Positions 877 through 6,945 of a stretch of 64,000 nt of DNA are shown here, one piece after another; within the stretch, counting starts at the first letter, position 1, and each line of letters opens with the position of its first letter. This DNA is from Winogradskyella forsetii (GTDB taxonomy: Bacteria > Bacteroidota > Bacteroidia > Flavobacteriales > Flavobacteriaceae): the NCBI RefSeq assembly GCF_013394595.1, contig NZ_CP053348.1, forward strand, positions 1,426,001 through 1,490,000. The letters run 5' to 3'. A program made the position numbers and the translations under genes. The notes beneath the pieces were generated by a model. It was not told the origin of the DNA, searched no databases, and saw only the letters and a list, made by a program, of their open reading frames with translations.

Positions 877-1094
877 AGTATTTGGTGAAAATATTTAGTT
901 TGGTCTCTGAGTATATGTAGTTAAAATTAAAGTAGTAAATATAAATTGAACCCGCAATAAATATCGGGTAATCGACAATTTTAAGAATTAAAACCAATTA
1001 TTATATGATACAGGAATACAAGTATGGAAGTGAAAAATTAATGGATTTTACTTGTTTTTTACCACAGTACTTTGTTGTGTGTAGTTGTTTTCAT

Positions 1095-1748
1095 TCAATT
1101 AGTTTTCTTTCCCATTTCGTATTTTCCAGTTTCAGCTAATTTTCCGTCATCGCTCCAAAGTTCATATTTGCCATGATGGATTTCTCCAACTTCCTCGTCA
1201 AATACATTGCCCAAATCTGTGTTGAAAATTTCGTAACTTTCTTTGATTCGTTCACATTCTTCGTCGTAGAATATTTCCAATTTGATTATTCCACCGTTTG
1301 AAAAGTGTATTTTGTTAAAGTCAAATTTGAATATACCATTTGCTTTTGTTTTCGTACCGGTTTTATAATCCTCGTGAAATCGGATAATAATATTCACTCT
1401 TTGGTATTGATTACTGTCTTGAAATTTCTCATTATCATTAAACTTGCTTTTCAAAAGAGTATTCTCCGAGTCCAAATAATTTCCGTTGTCAATGACGTAA
1501 TTTAAACTGTTGTTTTCATTGTAAACCTCAGTATAATATGCTATTCCATTTTTAATTCTATTTTTATAAGTCAATTTTGAATTTTGGTCATAATAGATTG
1601 AATTTCCATTAAAAGGTTCCCAACTGTTTTTGCTGAATAATACATTTTTAGTTTCCACAAGATTTGGCTCATCGATATATTCCGAATTATCCTGTGCAAA
1701 AAGACTGAACGTTTGTATCAAAAATAGAATTATTAATGTTTCTCTCAT
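1095..1748 (-). CDS. Hypothetical exported protein (cassette 1 cargo)
   Basis: Starting at the ATG at 1748 gives 217 residues beginning MRETLIILFLIQTFSLFAQD, a clear signal peptide with a cleavage site after FAQ; a TTG four codons upstream is possible but would only lengthen the N-terminus. The C-terminal region (GKYELWSDDGKLAETGKYEMG) resembles MORN-like or toxin-antitoxin-type YwqK repeats, in which short GxY-W-GK units recur. No catalytic motif is visible. The gene fills its cassette almost completely: the start is 14 bases inside one core and the stop 12 bases before the other. Confidence 0.65.
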   Translation of the reverse strand: MRETLIILFLIQTFSLFAQDNSEYIDEPNLVETKNVLFSKNSWEPFNGNSIYYDQNSKLTYKNRIKNGIAYYTEVYNENNSLNYVIDNGNYLDSENTLLKSKFNDNEKFQDSNQYQRVNIIIRFHEDYKTGTKTKANGIFKFDFNKIHFSNGGIIKLEIFYDEECERIKESYEIFNTDLGNVFDEEVGEIHHGKYELWSDDGKLAETGKYEMGKKTN

Positions 1749-1761
1749 TTTATTTTGCAAT

Positions 1762-1899
1762 TACACACAACGGATCCGTATATGAGAAGTAGCAGGTTAA
1801 AATGTAGTTACTTTTTAAGTTATAAACAAAGATAGCAGAAAAGAACAAAACTAATGTCTAGCTCTTAACTGCTATTTCTTATATACATTGTTGTGGTTA
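1762..1899 (-). repeat. attC-like cassette site 1
   Basis: The 118-base body lies between TACACACAAC (1762-1771) and GTTGTGGTTA (1890-1899). The inner arms include GTATATGAGAAGTAGCAG on one side and the complement of CTGCTATTTCTTATATACA on the other, giving a long imperfect stem. This is the most divergent of the four sites: the GAAA..TTTC central hairpin seen in the other three is absent. Confidence 0.65.
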
Positions 1900-1904
1900 G
1901 TTTT

Positions 1905-2468
1905 TTATTCCTCTTTTGTCAACGTTATGTTCGTTGGCAGTTGAAACTCTAAATTGTTAGGTGGTGGGTCATTCGGTGTTCTAATACCACTTGTACCAAT
2001 TGGGTCTTGTAAACTTATTGTTGCCGTACCATCATCGTTTATAATAAATGTTCCTTGTTTGTATTTCTCGCTTATAATGTCTGATATTTGAATAAAAAAT
2101 GTATTCTCTGATTCATATCCAACATATACTTTTGGTCTGTTTTGAATTAGATTTGGGATTTCTATAACTTCGGCAATTATATTTCCATCTTCAATATATT
2201 TATATTTTCCATGAATAACATCTTTAAAAAATGTTGAACCTTCAAAACCTGGGCTCTGTTCAAATTCCTGTAAAGTAATTTCAAAAGAAGAATTTCCACT
2301 TTCCCATCTCCAAACCCCAACGACTTGGTCGTGAATATTTTCTATATCTTTTATGTAGAAATTATTTTCAGTAATTTGTTCTCTTGGTGTACCTAATGGG
2401 TAAATTGTTTGCGCTTTACAACTGTAAAACGTTATTAATGTTATGAGTACTAATACTATATTTTTCAT
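1905..2468 (-). CDS. DUF6705-like exported protein (cassette 2 cargo)
   Basis: A 187-residue protein with a signal peptide whose end, FYSCKAQ, could be a lipobox. The region VVGVWRWESGNSSFEITLQE, followed by a block around HGKYKYIEDGN, matches my memory of the DUF6705 pattern (vGtWkw ... f.i.L ... G.Y.YieNG), a Flavobacteriia family of unknown function. It is the second gene of its cassette, 11 bases downstream of the 560-residue lipoprotein gene and probably cotranscribed with it. Its stop is only 6 bases before the cassette core at 1890-1899. Confidence 0.65.
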   Translation of the reverse strand: MKNIVLVLITLITFYSCKAQTIYPLGTPREQITENNFYIKDIENIHDQVVGVWRWESGNSSFEITLQEFEQSPGFEGSTFFKDVIHGKYKYIEDGNIIAEVIEIPNLIQNRPKVYVGYESENTFFIQISDIISEKYKQGTFIINDDGTATISLQDPIGTSGIRTPNDPPPNNLEFQLPTNITLTKEE

Positions 2469-2479
2469 AATCGTTATTT

Positions 2480-4162
2480 TTAATTACAAGGTTTTTCGTT
2501 TATTGTTGTATTGTCATTCTTTAGTTTTAGTTGTGACCAATTGGTGAAATCATCTTTATCGCCTTTGTATAATGTTAGCCCTAAATCCATATCTTTTAAT
2601 GCAAAAAGGAACTTTTGTTCGTTAATATTAGCAGAGATATTTGGATTAATAAAGTACTTATCTCTAAATAATAAAGACAAAGCATCTTCATCACTTAGAT
2701 AGATAGAAGCTTTAGCTAAAAATGCATTTGTATCAGAGATAGTTAAAGCATATAGAGTATCATCATCTGTAGATGCATTGCTATTGCCAGTTGTAGTAAG
2801 ATACATAACAAAAGTATCTGCATTATTAATGAGGTTATTACTGTATAAAGACCACAATGAGAATAAATCACCAGGTGAAAAAACAGGTAAACCTCCTAGA
2901 AAATGGTTGTGTATAAAGGAATCTGTCGGATTAAGAATGGTGTGATTAGGTATGCCATGTGTATTAGGGTCACTTTCTATTCTATCACCAGAAGAATAGT
3001 CCATATTGCCATCATTACCAATGTTACCATAGTAAAGTATTTCTGTGTTACCAGTTGTGGCTGTTCTTAACTCTTGCATACGATTTGTCCAATTGCCATT
3101 ATTTGCGATTTGCTGTAATTGATTACATCGTCTATTGCGTTCATCTTCCTCAACACATTCAGCAAGAGTATTTTCATCTGCAACACAATCACATATTTCT
3201 TGGCTATAGTCCCCAAGCATACAGAATTCATATGGACTCAAAGCGCAATCTCCGTCTAAGTCACCATCTAATCGTTCAGTACATTCTTCGGGTTTTATTG
3301 TAACTGTAATTGATGGGTCATCTTCTGTTGGGTCAGGTAAAGAGACACCTCCAGGATTTCCTGTGTCTCCTGGGTCGTAAGGGTCTTCAATGTCCCAGCT
3401 TTCTTCACAGGCGTAAGTTATGACTTGTTCTGTAGATGGGAATCTTGGTGTATAGGCGATACAGCCTCCACACTCAGACATACTTGTGTGTCCACAACCA
3501 CATGGTGTCGTAATATAATTAGTAGTTACAACAACAGTTCCTATACAACCAACAGGATAATCTGAGCTGTAAATAGCTCCACCACCTCCGCCAGTACCAT
3601 AATCAGCTGGATTGCCAAGACCACCACCTAACTCTTCTTCAAAGGCTTCTTCTGGGTCGGTGTATTGTGTCAATGTAGCTCTTTTTGATTGCACCTCACC
3701 TTGATATACGTCACCTTTATTGTTTAGCCAATATTCAGTTGGTGTATATTTAGTGATAAACATATCTGATTCACCATTCTTATATTCTATGGTAAGGTTA
3801 TAGAAAACTGTACTATCATTTTGGTGTACAATCTTCATTGTATAAGATGTGTAATCGCCAAGTGTCGCTTGCTTAATAATATCAGTTTCTATAATTAACC
3901 CAAGAGTATCTGTAGTTGATTTAGCTTGTATATTCTCAGAAAATCTTGAGGCTTTATACCTATCTAAATTGTATTGGGCTTTAAGATTGCTAAAAGTAGT
4001 ATTGGCATCATCATAGGATATTGTTTCTATTTTAGGAATTTTACGTTCCGAGTTTTGTTCTGTAGAAACATTATCATCTTTTTGACAGGCAATGGAAATA
4101 GCGGAAATTCCAAAGAGTAGGATTCCAAATTTGAGATAAGTTTTAATTCGTTTGTTTTTCAT
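2480..4162 (-). CDS. Lipoprotein with JAMM-like metalloprotease motif
   Basis: A 560-residue lipoprotein with lipobox SIACQ at about residue 26. Residues about 40-170 resemble the N-terminal domains of secreted Bacteroidota proteins. A Gly- and Cys-rich segment (about 190-345, including GGGLGNPADYGTGGGGG and many Cys) follows. The C-terminal domain carries H418-N-H420, then S429-P-G-D432, very like the JAMM/MPN zinc site HxH-x7-SxxD, but with eight instead of seven intervening residues; a candidate upstream Glu lies near residue 375. If real, this would be an extracytoplasmic isopeptidase-like or peptidase domain. It is the first gene of the largest cassette and has a 115-base leader that may hold a promoter. 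Function is inference. Confidence 0.65.
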   Translation of the reverse strand: MKNKRIKTYLKFGILLFGISAISIACQKDDNVSTEQNSERKIPKIETISYDDANTTFSNLKAQYNLDRYKASRFSENIQAKSTTDTLGLIIETDIIKQATLGDYTSYTMKIVHQNDSTVFYNLTIEYKNGESDMFITKYTPTEYWLNNKGDVYQGEVQSKRATLTQYTDPEEAFEEELGGGLGNPADYGTGGGGGAIYSSDYPVGCIGTVVVTTNYITTPCGCGHTSMSECGGCIAYTPRFPSTEQVITYACEESWDIEDPYDPGDTGNPGGVSLPDPTEDDPSITVTIKPEECTERLDGDLDGDCALSPYEFCMLGDYSQEICDCVADENTLAECVEEDERNRRCNQLQQIANNGNWTNRMQELRTATTGNTEILYYGNIGNDGNMDYSSGDRIESDPNTHGIPNHTILNPTDSFIHNHFLGGLPVFSPGDLFSLWSLYSNNLINNADTFVMYLTTTGNSNASTDDDTLYALTISDTNAFLAKASIYLSDEDALSLLFRDKYFINPNISANINEQKFLFALKDMDLGLTLYKGDKDDFTNWSQLKLKNDNTTINEKPCN

Positions 4163-4277
4163 ACCGTTGTTGGTTTTAAGTTAATCATTTAAATTTAATT
4201 CGAGTTAATTTACTTTCAAATCGATAATGAGTGAACTATGTTTCTCGTTTAGTTAACTGCTCATTGGCTTGGTAAAT

Positions 4278-4415
4278 TAACCACAACGGGTTTGTGTATG
4301 ATTTCGTTGCGTGTTTAAGCACTAAAGTTAGCAAATAAATCACAGATAGAAAGTCCGCGAGGACTTTCGTAAATAGGCTATAACTAGCAATGAATTATAC
4401 ACGTTGTTAGCTACA
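4278..4415 (-). repeat. attC-like cassette site 2
   Basis: The 118-base body is bounded by TAACCACAAC (4278-4287) and GTTAGCTACA (4406-4415). The outer arms TGTGTATGATTTCGTTGC and the complement of GCAATGAATTATACACG form an imperfect stem. At the centre is a perfect 8-base hairpin, GAAAGTCC-GCGA-GGACTTTC (4349-4368). A conserved tract around GTGTTTAAGCAC is shared with site 3. Confidence 0.75.
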
Positions 4416-4421
4416 GTATTT

Positions 4422-4925
4422 TTAATTTTCTAAATAATCTTCTATAAAGTGAGTTCTATTGTATAAAAATAGCCAACCCATTTTGTTAGTTTTTGAATTA
4501 GGTTGATTTTGATAAGTCCATTCAATACGATAATTTTTTGTCTCCCATACTTGAGCTTTGTTTCCTATTTTTCTTCTGTCTTTTACGAATCCAGTCGGCA
4601 AGTTATCCCAATGTTTTATTAATTCATTTCTAATTTTCTCATAAATCTCAAAAGGTAAACCATCTCCATTTTCTCCAAAAATCACGTGTAATGAAATTAG
4701 TTTTTTACTTTCAAAATATGCAACTAATCGATAAGGAAAATCTGTTTTAATATCTACTAACTCCATTTCAGATGATGCTATGACCCAACCAGTCTCTGGT
4801 AATGGATCTGGTGCAGTAATTTCTCCAAGACCATCTAATTCGAAAGGTTTGAGAGTAGGATTTTTGTCTTGGGCTTTTACCAAGATACTCATCAGTATTA
4901 GAATTAGTAAAAATGTTTGTTTCAT
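4422..4925 (-). CDS. Hypothetical exported protein (cassette 3 cargo)
   Basis: From the ATG at 4925 the product is 167 residues beginning MKQTFLLILILMSILVKAQD, a standard signal peptide ending in KAQ. An in-frame ATG at 4946 lies 3 bases inside the cassette core; it would add seven charged residues and spoil the signal peptide, so I prefer the inner start. No family recognised. The mature chain has conserved-looking aromatic patches (RIEWTYQNQ, MGWLFLYNRTHF). The gene is alone in its cassette and its stop is 6 bases before the core. No room for a private promoter is apparent, so it may depend on read-through or on a promoter in the adjacent site. Confidence 0.6.
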   Translation of the reverse strand: MKQTFLLILILMSILVKAQDKNPTLKPFELDGLGEITAPDPLPETGWVIASSEMELVDIKTDFPYRLVAYFESKKLISLHVIFGENGDGLPFEIYEKIRNELIKHWDNLPTGFVKDRRKIGNKAQVWETKNYRIEWTYQNQPNSKTNKMGWLFLYNRTHFIEDYLEN

Positions 4926-4948
4926 TTCGAATGTTCGTTTTTTCATAT

Positions 4949-5084
4949 TGTAGCTAACGTGATTGTATAAGATTAGTGGCGTGTTTAAGCACCTAATTTA
5001 GCAAAAAAACACCAGATAGAAAATCCGCGAGGATTTTCGTAAGTAGGCGAGAACTAGCCATTAATTTTATACGGTGTTGGCAAC
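4949..5084 (-). repeat. attC-like cassette site 3
   Basis: The 117-base body lies between TGTAGCTAAC (4949-4958) and GTTGGCAAC (5076-5084). The outer arms GTATAAGATTAGTGG and the complement of CCATTAATTTTATAC match at 13 of 15 positions. The central hairpin is GAAAATCC-GCGA-GGATTTTC (5019-5038), identical to that of site 2 except for one base pair, which changed on both sides. Confidence 0.75.
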
Positions 5085-5780
5085 TGGCTTTTTATTCAAT
5101 TTGTTAATTATTTCCTCGTCTTGAAATGTCCGAATTCCATTTTTATAATTGTTCAAAAAATATTCATCGTAACCTGTATCATTAATTTTTTCCGCAATAA
5201 TTTTTTCTGTAAGAAATGATTTTGGATTAGGAACAGTCAATGTCGCTATAAGAAAATCAAATTCATTCATTTCGTCAGTCCATTTTATTTTTAGAAATCC
5301 GTTTTTATCAATTATTTCGGTTTCTTTTTCTATTGTGTAATCAGAAGGTTTGAAATTATATTCAGAATATATTTTTGTCCAGCGTTCTTTTATAATTTCA
5401 AGATTTCTACTTTCCTCTAATTTTGGGTTTATTAAAAGTCCAACAGTTCCCCAACTTTTATTTAAAGAAGGCCCAGTTTTTTTCCAAAGTCCTTCTGCTG
5501 ATGCCATAGCAAATGCTTGACTTTCTAAATTTCGAGCGTTTTTAAGTACTTCTTTAAATCTCAAAATGTAAGCGTTTCCAAATTCCGTTTTTGGGTGATT
5601 TGACAAAATCATTGTATGTGTATTTCTACGAGAACTTGATTCTCTTCCGTAACGAATTCGAGCTTTTAATGGAATTAGATTTTCTGTAGGTTCTAGATAG
5701 AGTTTTCTCCATTTAATTCGTTTCGGTTCGTTGTCCCAAAGTAATGAACCTATGATTATTGCTCCTCCTTTAAATTCCAT
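5067..5780 (-). CDS. Hypothetical protein (cassette 4 cargo)
   Basis: A 237-residue protein without a signal peptide or membrane segment. I do not recognise the family. The N-terminus MEFKGGAIIIGSLLWDN, a basic Arg/Ser cluster (RYGRESSSRRNTHTMILS) and a Gly-Leu loop (WGTVGLLINP) look like an enzyme or nucleotide-binding fold, but no diagnostic motif is present. The start is 20 bases inside the right core. The last residues, ...PVANTV, are encoded across the left core, and the stop codon lies within the attC-like site, as happens in many integron cassettes. Confidence 0.6.
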   Translation of the reverse strand: MEFKGGAIIIGSLLWDNEPKRIKWRKLYLEPTENLIPLKARIRYGRESSSRRNTHTMILSNHPKTEFGNAYILRFKEVLKNARNLESQAFAMASAEGLWKKTGPSLNKSWGTVGLLINPKLEESRNLEIIKERWTKIYSEYNFKPSDYTIEKETEIIDKNGFLKIKWTDEMNEFDFLIATLTVPNPKSFLTEKIIAEKINDTGYDEYFLNNYKNGIRTFQDEEIINKLNKKPVANTV

Positions 5781-5799
5781 CTATGTTGTTTTTCAGCTT

Positions 5800-5937
5800 G
5801 TTGCCAACGCTCAGTGTATGGTTTGTTGCGTGATTAAGTTACTAATTTAGCAAACTTTGACGAGCCTGAGAAAATTCCGAAGGAATTTTCCAGATAAGCA
5901 CTTGGCAAGCAATGAACTATACACAATGTTGTAGGTA
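5800..5937 (-). repeat. attC-like cassette site 4
   Basis: The 119-base body lies between GTTGCCAAC (5800-5808) and GTTGTAGGTA (5928-5937). The outer arms GTGTATGGTTTGTTGC and the complement of GCAATGAACTATACAC match at 13 of 16 positions. The central hairpin is GAAAATTCC-GAA-GGAATTTTC (5870-5890), a perfect 9-base stem whose sequence differs from sites 2 and 3 while keeping pairing. Confidence 0.75.
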
Positions 5938-5942
5938 GTTTT

Positions 5943-6357
5943 TTATAGTCCGTCAAATATTCCTCCAATAAATTCTCCAACACCTTCTAATAATCCATCA
6001 AAGACATCTCCGAAATCCAGCCAAGAAGCGTCAATATCTAAATCAGGAATTGCTAACCAATCTACAGAAGTCGAAGTTGTAAGTCCACTTAACATTTCGG
6101 TTTTCATATCAACATAGTTGCATACCTCTCCAGTAATTTCGTGATAAGCGTCAAAGTCAGAATGAGAAGAGAATGTACACATAGCCCAACAATGCCAATC
6201 TATTCCGCTAGAATCATAGTGTTTAGATTTTTTTGAGGGTTTTTTAACTTCTTCTGGCTTATAGTATTTTTTATTTCCGTGTTCTGCGACTAATATCTTT
6301 CCAATATCTGTGATTTATTCTTTTTTATTAGGTGGTGCTGTAGGACATTGAGTGTTC
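5943..6357 (-). pseudogene. Broken cassette gene with in-frame stop
   Basis: The reading frame starts MNTQCPTAPPNKKE from the ATG at 6357, meets a TAA after codon 14, then continues without another stop as ITDIGKILVAEHGNKKYY and on to a 79-residue tail from the next Met at 6182, ending at 5943. The frame is continuous on both sides, so one A-to-T change (AAA to TAA) explains the break. The tail holds Cys and Trp residues (DWHCWAMC, GEVCNY) and an acidic, Gly-rich amphipathic C-terminus. A short product from 6182 may still be made. I do not recognise the family. Second gene of cassette 5; its end is 6 bases before the core. Confidence 0.55.
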
Positions 6358-6370
6358 ATTTTTAGTTTTT

Positions 6371-6790
6371 TTATTTTTCATTCAGTTTGTCAAAATATTT
6401 TTTACGATAAAATTCATTGACATCTCTTTTTATAGTGTCCGTTTTTGAATTTCTAACATAATATTCAAAATCAGAATCAATTTTCTTATATAATGAATCT
6501 CCAATATTTATTTTTTCGTGGATGAAAAAAGGAATTTCTTTTTCCCATTTATTGTCAATTAAAATCGGTCTAGTTCGTCCGTTATCTTTGACTAATAATA
6601 GACTTGTTATTTTTCCAGAGTATGAGTTATTTCGGATTTTTTCATATTCTTTTTTAAGATAATTCTGCGAATTGTTTTGAATTAGTGAGATAGAGATAAT
6701 TACAATAAAAATTGGAATAAACACCAATGCAAGACTTTTTCGGATTGTCTTTTCTTGTTTTTTCAATTCATTTTTGTTTTCCGTACTCAT
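6371..6790 (-). CDS. Hypothetical membrane-anchored protein (cassette 5)
   Basis: A 139-residue protein: a charged, Lys-rich N-terminus of about 20 residues, one hydrophobic segment (about 21-38, LVFIPIFIVIISISLI), then a hydrophilic domain likely exported. Family not recognised; the domain around SGKITSLLLVKDNGRTRP looks like a small beta-rich module. The start is only 9 bases from the cassette core at 6800-6809, so there is no space for a separate leader. The stop is 13 bases before the start of the broken gene next to it. Confidence 0.55.
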   Translation of the reverse strand: MSTENKNELKKQEKTIRKSLALVFIPIFIVIISISLIQNNSQNYLKKEYEKIRNNSYSGKITSLLLVKDNGRTRPILIDNKWEKEIPFFIHEKINIGDSLYKKIDSDFEYYVRNSKTDTIKRDVNEFYRKKYFDKLNEK

Positions 6791-6799
6791 TGGTCAAAT

Positions 6800-6945
6800 T
6801 ACCTACAACACCTGTATAAGGTTACTTAAGCCATAAAAGTAACGTTATTTCGCTTAAGTCTGTACTTCTGGGTGGTCTGTTTTAAGGCTAATAATATCAA
6901 GCTTTATAATTCTTACTATTTTTAATATATAAAACGTGCAAATAT
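6800..6945 (-). repeat. Degenerate terminal cassette site next to corA
   Basis: TACCTACAAC (6800-6809) is the core of the last cassette. It is followed by CCTGTATAAGGTTACTTAAG, which resembles the outer arm of the other sites, and about 118 bases later by ATATATAAAACGTGC, which resembles their opposite arm but has lost the GTT core. A private hairpin (GTTACTT..AAAGTAAC, 6831-6853) is inside. The site ends about 20 bases before the corA stop codon. It could be a decayed attC or the primary, attI-like, attachment site. Confidence 0.4.

Follow-up and report, generated by a model that had tools for sequence, protein, structure and literature searches.

The stretch of Winogradskyella forsetii DNA analyzed here, hereafter the window, comprises 64,000 nt (NZ_CP053348.1, positions 1,426,001-1,490,000); feature coordinates are window positions. 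It carries an integron-like array at 1074-6809, in which five gene cassettes lie on the minus strand, with bodies of 882, 733, 553, 2398 and 698 bp in order of transcription, joined by spacers of 119, 117, 118 and 118 bp. An original prediction made from the letters of the window had described five same-strand blocks, and their coordinates, orientation and spacer lengths all proved exact on recomputation. Its block picture was right but omitted the two open reading frames (ORFs) in block 2, the missing spacer at 1074 and the stop-interrupted ORF in block 5; the inverted ends that it called private to each block are indeed so, but extend over 14 positions rather than 9-10 bases. When the full 64 kb was scanned by rule, the five cassettes and one low-complexity match came up on the minus strand, with zero matches on the plus strand. 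We read the locus, with a probability of roughly 0.9, as a single array within a chromosomal, multi-array gene-capture system of integron-like kind that employs a non-IntI recombinase. The parts of this reading that were taken from sequence are the cassette anatomy, the matching ends, the mobile unit and its breakpoints, the copies in several arrays and in another species, the head sites and the recombinase genes that adjoin heads in many genomes.

First, each cassette is bounded by ends that match each other and not their neighbors. The start (R') and end (R'') of the window cassettes pair at 13/13 or 12/13 positions when position 11 is left out, and position 11 in all five blocks is A in R' and, once R'' is reverse-complemented, G there. 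Over the 10 variable positions, own partners score 10, 10, 10, 9 and 10, as compared to 1-8 for wrong partners. Among 108 neighboring site pairs across the genome, scored at positions 4-9 against 1000 partner shuffles, 90 cassettes match at 6/6 and the mean is 5.60/6, as against 2.48/6 for shuffled partners (standard deviation 0.13, maximum 2.93) and 2.71/6 for the two ends of one site. The proposal that ends pair within a cassette and not within a site, as in integrons, thus holds across more than 100 cassettes. The match covers positions 4-10 and 12-14 and drops to chance level from 15 onward, while position 11 breaks the pairing by rule, being A versus G nearly everywhere (80 of 83 well-matched cassettes comply). 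The R boxes of IntI integrons read RYYYAAC and GTTRRRY; here just 2 of 83 R boxes fit GTTRRRY, a departure from that consensus beyond GTT that the original prediction had noted. Private inverted ends on every block would also be expected if each block were a transposon or miniature inverted-repeat transposable element with its own terminal inverted repeats. However, the ends vary between blocks under a fixed position rule, the spacer beyond one end moves along with the block, and the blocks stand in series, in one orientation and joined through spacers, making this the least credible of the rival explanations.

Second, the spacers belong to a large site family. A single-spacer query gave 40 scored copies among 120 candidates in the genome; an iterated profile search covering ~330 kb around the arrays gave 143 matches, 142 of them extractable; and a covariance model found at least 144 copies in the whole genome, a lower bound because only 150 candidates were scored. 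The sites group into a dozen or more clusters, each of a single orientation, and their AAC-to-GTT spacer lengths fall into two classes, ~113-121 and ~178-192 bp. By its anatomy, the genome holds more than 140 apparently exchangeable gene cassettes in many arrays. The longest ORF runs forward in 74 cassettes and in reverse in 5, with a median coverage of 92% of the cassette, so that the single orientation noted in the window extends to the genome. The contents are diverse: the 64 different cassette proteins form few recurring families, with matches to a type IIG restriction enzyme, a KAP-NTPase (PifA/QatA-like), a glyoxalase, SUFU, leucine-rich repeats and several domains of unknown function (DUFs), DUF6705 being the only family recognized among the window cassette proteins. 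The cassette adjacent to the integrase (L038:10538-11284) encodes a divergent helix-hairpin-helix DNA glycosylase-like protein (Ogg-HhH, under the Pfam cutoff).

Third, gene and downstream site move together. At separate places in the same or different arrays there are 17 cassette pairs of 100% identity, whose own downstream spacers are 0.97-1.0 identical and whose upstream spacers are only 0.47-0.93 identical. Since the gene takes its downstream spacer along but leaves the upstream one behind, the mobile unit is the gene plus its 3' site, as in integrons. Compared base by base, 8 of 9 cassette pairs are identical throughout cassette and spacer, the identity opening at GTT (with 1-5 shared bases before it) and closing within the next R'. 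Window cassette 3 with its spacer has an identical copy in another array, at genome position 2171069. Window cassette 5 has a copy at genome 1112802-1113839 (98.9% identity, spacer included), which follows an ordinary site and not a head. Copies also extend to another species: one host cassette shares 98.8% identity, over 938 of 942 bp, with a cassette of that species (G040), in an array that sits behind an integrase of a different clade. It is worth asking whether homologous recombination between dispersed repeats could have duplicated and shuffled such blocks without a dedicated enzyme. The spacers are alike enough for RecA, which may add to deletions and tandem copies, but the breakpoints fall at GTT and not within the homologous spacers, the downstream spacer is identical while the upstream one differs, the private complementary ends require a mechanism, and there are head sites and adjoining recombinases; we consider such an origin highly improbable.

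Two observations on individual cassettes belong here. The second ORF of cassette 5 (window 6183-6370) begins MNTQCPTAPPNKKE and runs into an in-frame TAA; the same in-frame stop is present in the copy in another array (genome 1.1131 Mb), and because both copies share it, either the stop predates the copying or the ORF is read another way. Separately, an 822-bp cassette occurs five times in one array (G000 C1:1110069-1127670; L042, L043) with bodies that are 100% identical, two copies being directly consecutive and the others interleaved with different cassettes.

Fourth, the sites have a strand preference in folding. When the circular-form sites of 68 cassettes were folded as single-stranded DNA, the bottom strand was the more stable in 66, with a mean of -27.4 versus -22.8 kcal/mol for the top. 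Two arm positions place A opposite C in 36 of 36 sites, as does R-box position 11, and the inner arms of the top strand show A.C 91 times and G.T once. The bottom strand folds better because these A.C mismatches become T.G wobbles there. Strand choice in integrons is set by extrahelical bases (PMC2727003), a part that the three invariant A.C/G.T positions might play here. The same asymmetry speaks to the idea that the spacers are structured RNA elements, either terminators or regulators, between co-oriented genes. They do form hairpins, including an AAAATCC..GGATTTT stem that is a potential transcription terminator, and may thus have a side role in transcription termination. On the other hand, none matches Rfam at E values up to 0.1, they move with genes, and the invariant A.C mismatches lie on the sense strand, leaving the antisense DNA strand as the better-paired of the two. 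We reject the RNA-element explanation on account of this poorer pairing of the sense strand and rate it lower than recombination between repeats. A conserved RNA element was one outcome that the original prediction had named as speaking against it; what was found instead is a site of no Rfam family that pairs better on the strand that is not RNA sense.

Fifth, the arrays begin at recurrent head sites, one of which adjoins an intact recombinase gene. The sequence upstream of the first window cassette has 8 genome copies at E <1e-6; the 7 head sites that were read in sequence are each followed at once by a GTT R' and stand where an array begins on its upstream side. Immediately past the stop codon of an intact tyrosine recombinase gene (C1:2129318-2130454) comes one head, which the largest array follows, so that, by anatomy alone, an attI-like head stands in cis to an integrase gene at an array start. 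The other seven heads, including that of the window, are orphan. Nonetheless, the DNA upstream of the heads at 1413510 and 1658593 still encodes pieces of the recombinase C-terminus, and alignment reveals nucleotide traces of the end of the integrase gene at further heads. At the window head, ~30 upstream bases are still similar to the integrase gene end, with the stop codon of the homologous stretch altered to CAG. Because this short stretch resembles the integrase 3' end, the window array looks like an orphan platform that has lost its integrase. The earlier description of an array without an integrase is therefore true locally, but not of the genome, where the candidate integrase heads the largest array 697 kb away. 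The closest relative examined (G033), whose neighboring CorA-like protein is 95% identical, has DNA 89% identical up to the head, followed by two different cassettes, the divergence from the window setting in at GTT; an alignment row of DNA near this relative's own other-clade integrase was uninformative. Block content thus differs between related genomes at the same head, whereas invariant content was what the original prediction had named as speaking against a cassette array. In seven other relatives, homology extends no further than the CorA-like gene, with no head visible.

Table 1. Features of the cassette array, in window positions (all on the minus strand)
Feature	Position	Strand	Remarks
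R'' (3' end) of cassette 1	1074..1087	-	last in array; own downstream spacer lost
Cassette 1 body, 698 bp	1074..1771	-	one ORF, no recognized family, ~1095-1748
R' of cassette 1, GTTGTGTGTAATTG	1758..1771	-	from boundary recomputation
attC-like spacer of cassette 2, 118 bp	1772..1889	-	divergent site-family member, 78.8 bits
Cassette 2 body, 2398 bp	1890..4287	-	two ORFs: 2480-4162 (560 amino acids, no Pfam match) and 1905-2468 (DUF6705)
attC-like spacer of cassette 3, 118 bp	4288..4405	-	142.8 bits; identical copy at genome 2171.6 kb
Cassette 3 body, 553 bp	4406..4958	-	ORF 4422-4946
attC-like spacer of cassette 4, 117 bp	4959..5075	-	149.2 bits
Cassette 4 body, 733 bp	5076..5808	-	ORF 5067-5780, stop codon inside spacer
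attC-like spacer of cassette 5, 119 bp	5809..5927	-	115 bits
Cassette 5 body, 882 bp	5928..6809	-	first in array; ORF 6371-6790 and interrupted ORF 5943-6182
R' of cassette 5, GTTGTAGGTAATTT	6796..6809	-	abuts head site directly
attI-like head site, AAGCGAAATAACGTTACTTTTATGGCTTAAGTAACCTTATACAGGTGTT	6807..6866	-	8 genome copies
Probable remnant of 3' end of lost integrase gene	6862..6890	-	from alignment with heads retaining the integrase end

What kind of enzyme is this recombinase? It matches the tyrosine recombinase domain PF00589, and its catalytic R218, K243, H307, R310, H333 and Y342 are invariant in 12 homologs. XerA and IntI are its best-fitting family models, with neither cutoff reached. 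Against the IntI model TIGR02249 (cutoff 265) it scores 187.7 bits, matching in two stretches, and a Galbibacter homolog scores 185.5; against the XerA model NF040815 (cutoff 220) the two members scored reach 198.4 bits, for the recombinase itself, and 187.1. An AlphaFold model of the Galbibacter homolog (pLDDT, the predicted local distance difference test, 76; pTM, the predicted template modeling score, 0.47), good for the fold level only, retrieved XerA first and IntI4 next with Foldseek. In the match to IntI4 (2A3V, 106.8 bits) the alignment breaks at chain residues 205-246, the IntI-specific insertion being missing. The I2 helix of integrases is specific to them and absent from XerCD (PMC4792948). 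True IntI proteins of the phylum exceed the TIGR02249 cutoff, mostly at 400-497 bits, and 16 of them form one clade with support 100 in a tree that places the array recombinases outside it; given its long Xer branches, this tree does not decide whether IntI is sister to the array recombinases. These sequence comparisons indicate that the recombinase is related to, yet distinct from, IntI.

The most serious competitor, which has to be judged in this light, is an IntI integron of the classical type, or else a cluster of attC sites lacking integrase (CALIN), in which the sites have degenerated. It would share the cassette logic as well as a site length and orientation like those of the Vibrio cholerae repeat (VCR), and the recombinase does match both TIGR02249 and IntI4. 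Yet that TIGR02249 score is far under the cutoff, the IntI-specific insertion is missing, the phylum's IntI form a separate clade with full support, so few R boxes fit GTTRRRY, and the host genome has no IntI over the TIGR02249 cutoff. We find this origin improbable, albeit less so than the other rivals. The original prediction had offered, as its second alternative, a different recombination system with the same logic; as the recombinase branches apart from the IntI clade and the genome encodes no IntI above the cutoff, it is this alternative that fits best.

The system reaches well beyond one genome. Close recombinase relatives occur in 17 of 400 sampled Flavobacteriaceae genomes. Named genomes that have them include Galbibacter orientalis, Lacinutrix jangbogonensis, Cellulophaga baltica and Mariniflexile gromovii; two further genomes with such a relative come from different families of the same class. 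Counting the host's own, 53 recombinase loci have rule-obeying cassettes downstream, with 206 forward pairs and 1 reverse, as compared to 0 after the sequence was shuffled; the distance from the recombinase stop to the first R' is usually 30-150 bp, and many of the remaining loci sit at contig ends. Of 141 perfect pairs in the relatives, 140 have A/G at position 11, though this was not imposed, and spacer lengths again form two classes (115-125 and 179-186). Within the host's genus, at least 30 of 61 sampled genomes have an array-bearing recombinase locus. Array-bearing recombinases fall mainly into three supported clades of the tree. The idea that only close integrase orthologs accompany arrays proved wrong: many homologs of 31-48% identity, taken as negative controls, have arrays. 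Arrays are absent from a 14-row clade of similar recombinases, which served as a negative control; this widespread array-free clade, 36-41% identical, comprises L169-L171, L181, L182, L184-L186, L190, L202 and L220-L223. Whole platforms also seem to duplicate, since some genomes have two near-identical integrase genes that precede different cassettes, as in G186 (C1:668592 and C1:3128963; L136, L137) and Galbibacter orientalis (L124, L126). Phages yielded no recombinase homolog at 1e-50, and plasmids only distant ones of 40-50% identity, mostly from Acinetobacter. In Acinetobacter plasmids (e.g., NZ_CP041297.1:22391-23074) there is a recombinase with 50% identity in the catalytic half, which bears a TnpF annotation in FJ012881.1.

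Taken together, these features suggest the following mechanism. A cassette would be a circle of one gene, sometimes two, and its 3' recombination site of ~118 or 182 bp. Within the circle, the outer 14-base R' and R'' would be complementary and the bottom strand would fold as a long hairpin. The tyrosine recombinase C1:2129318-2130454 would then cut at or beside the GTT of R', and the circle would be joined either to the double-stranded attI-like head or to another site, whereby the gene would be inserted behind the head in a single orientation. Cassettes would be moved and copied between arrays in trans. Beyond the anatomy, we infer that the adjoining recombinase is the catalyst, that its substrate is the bottom strand in single-stranded form, where exactly it cuts, that the system is active at present and that expression is by read-through.

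Several points weigh against this reading. Some arrays have no detected head. The host genome encodes six other tyrosine recombinases, and the link between enzyme and site is one of adjacency. The best integrase match of G033 is just 44% identical and belongs to another clade; because this relative nevertheless keeps the head, the pairing between head and enzyme is loose. At their ends, 22 of 105 cassettes score <8/10, reflecting either decay or an intervening site that was overlooked. Finally, with one genome per species compared, no shuffling among strains was observed.

No earlier description was found in the open-access literature searched, preprints and most subscription journals being outside that search. 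Integron surveys left Bacteroidetes nearly empty, an earlier one finding only integrases without cassettes and a later one a single complete integron within Bacteroidetes proper, in Salinibacter ruber (PMC9024848). The present findings point to a gene-capture system of integron-like design, not described before and common among Flavobacteriaceae. If confirmed, it would reveal a large and so far hidden pool of mobile genes, restriction-modification and other defense-like genes among them. A bolder idea, to which we give slightly less than even odds, is that of a second, independently evolved kind of integron, in which non-IntI recombinases without the I2 helix act on single-stranded hairpins, a G.T-wobble code designates the strand, and one integrase serves many orphan attI heads. 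Were this true, Flavobacteriaceae would have it as their main gene-cassette system, one that present integron finders probably overlook. Confirmation of the gene-capture system itself would also make a question testable: are the I2 helix and extrahelical bases required for folded single-stranded sites, or do another recombinase and a wobble-pair code suffice?

Among known systems, the closest likeness is to the Vibrio-type chromosomal integrons (IntI, attI, attC/VCR), in which gene plus 3' site is likewise mobile, cassettes share one orientation, R' and R'' match within the cassette, the site is an imperfect hairpin of ~120 bp whose bottom strand is favored in folding, and an attI-like head lies beside a tyrosine recombinase. 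In contrast to these, the recombinase here falls outside the IntI clade and lacks the IntI-specific insertion, the R boxes span 14 positions and are non-GTTRRRY, polarity is marked by invariant A.C/G.T positions, the integrase lies upstream of the cassettes on the same strand, and each genome has several heads, mostly orphan. CALINs resemble the present system in having arrays without a local integrase, whereas in the present system an attI-like head persists on several arrays, in some cases with integrase traces, and the sites are of a different class. XerA-type recombinases (PDB 5HXY, 4A8E; NF040815) provide the best sequence and fold matches of the integrase, which differs from them in missing the NF040815 cutoff (in both members scored), in its ~85 extra N-terminal residues and in its association with cassette arrays.

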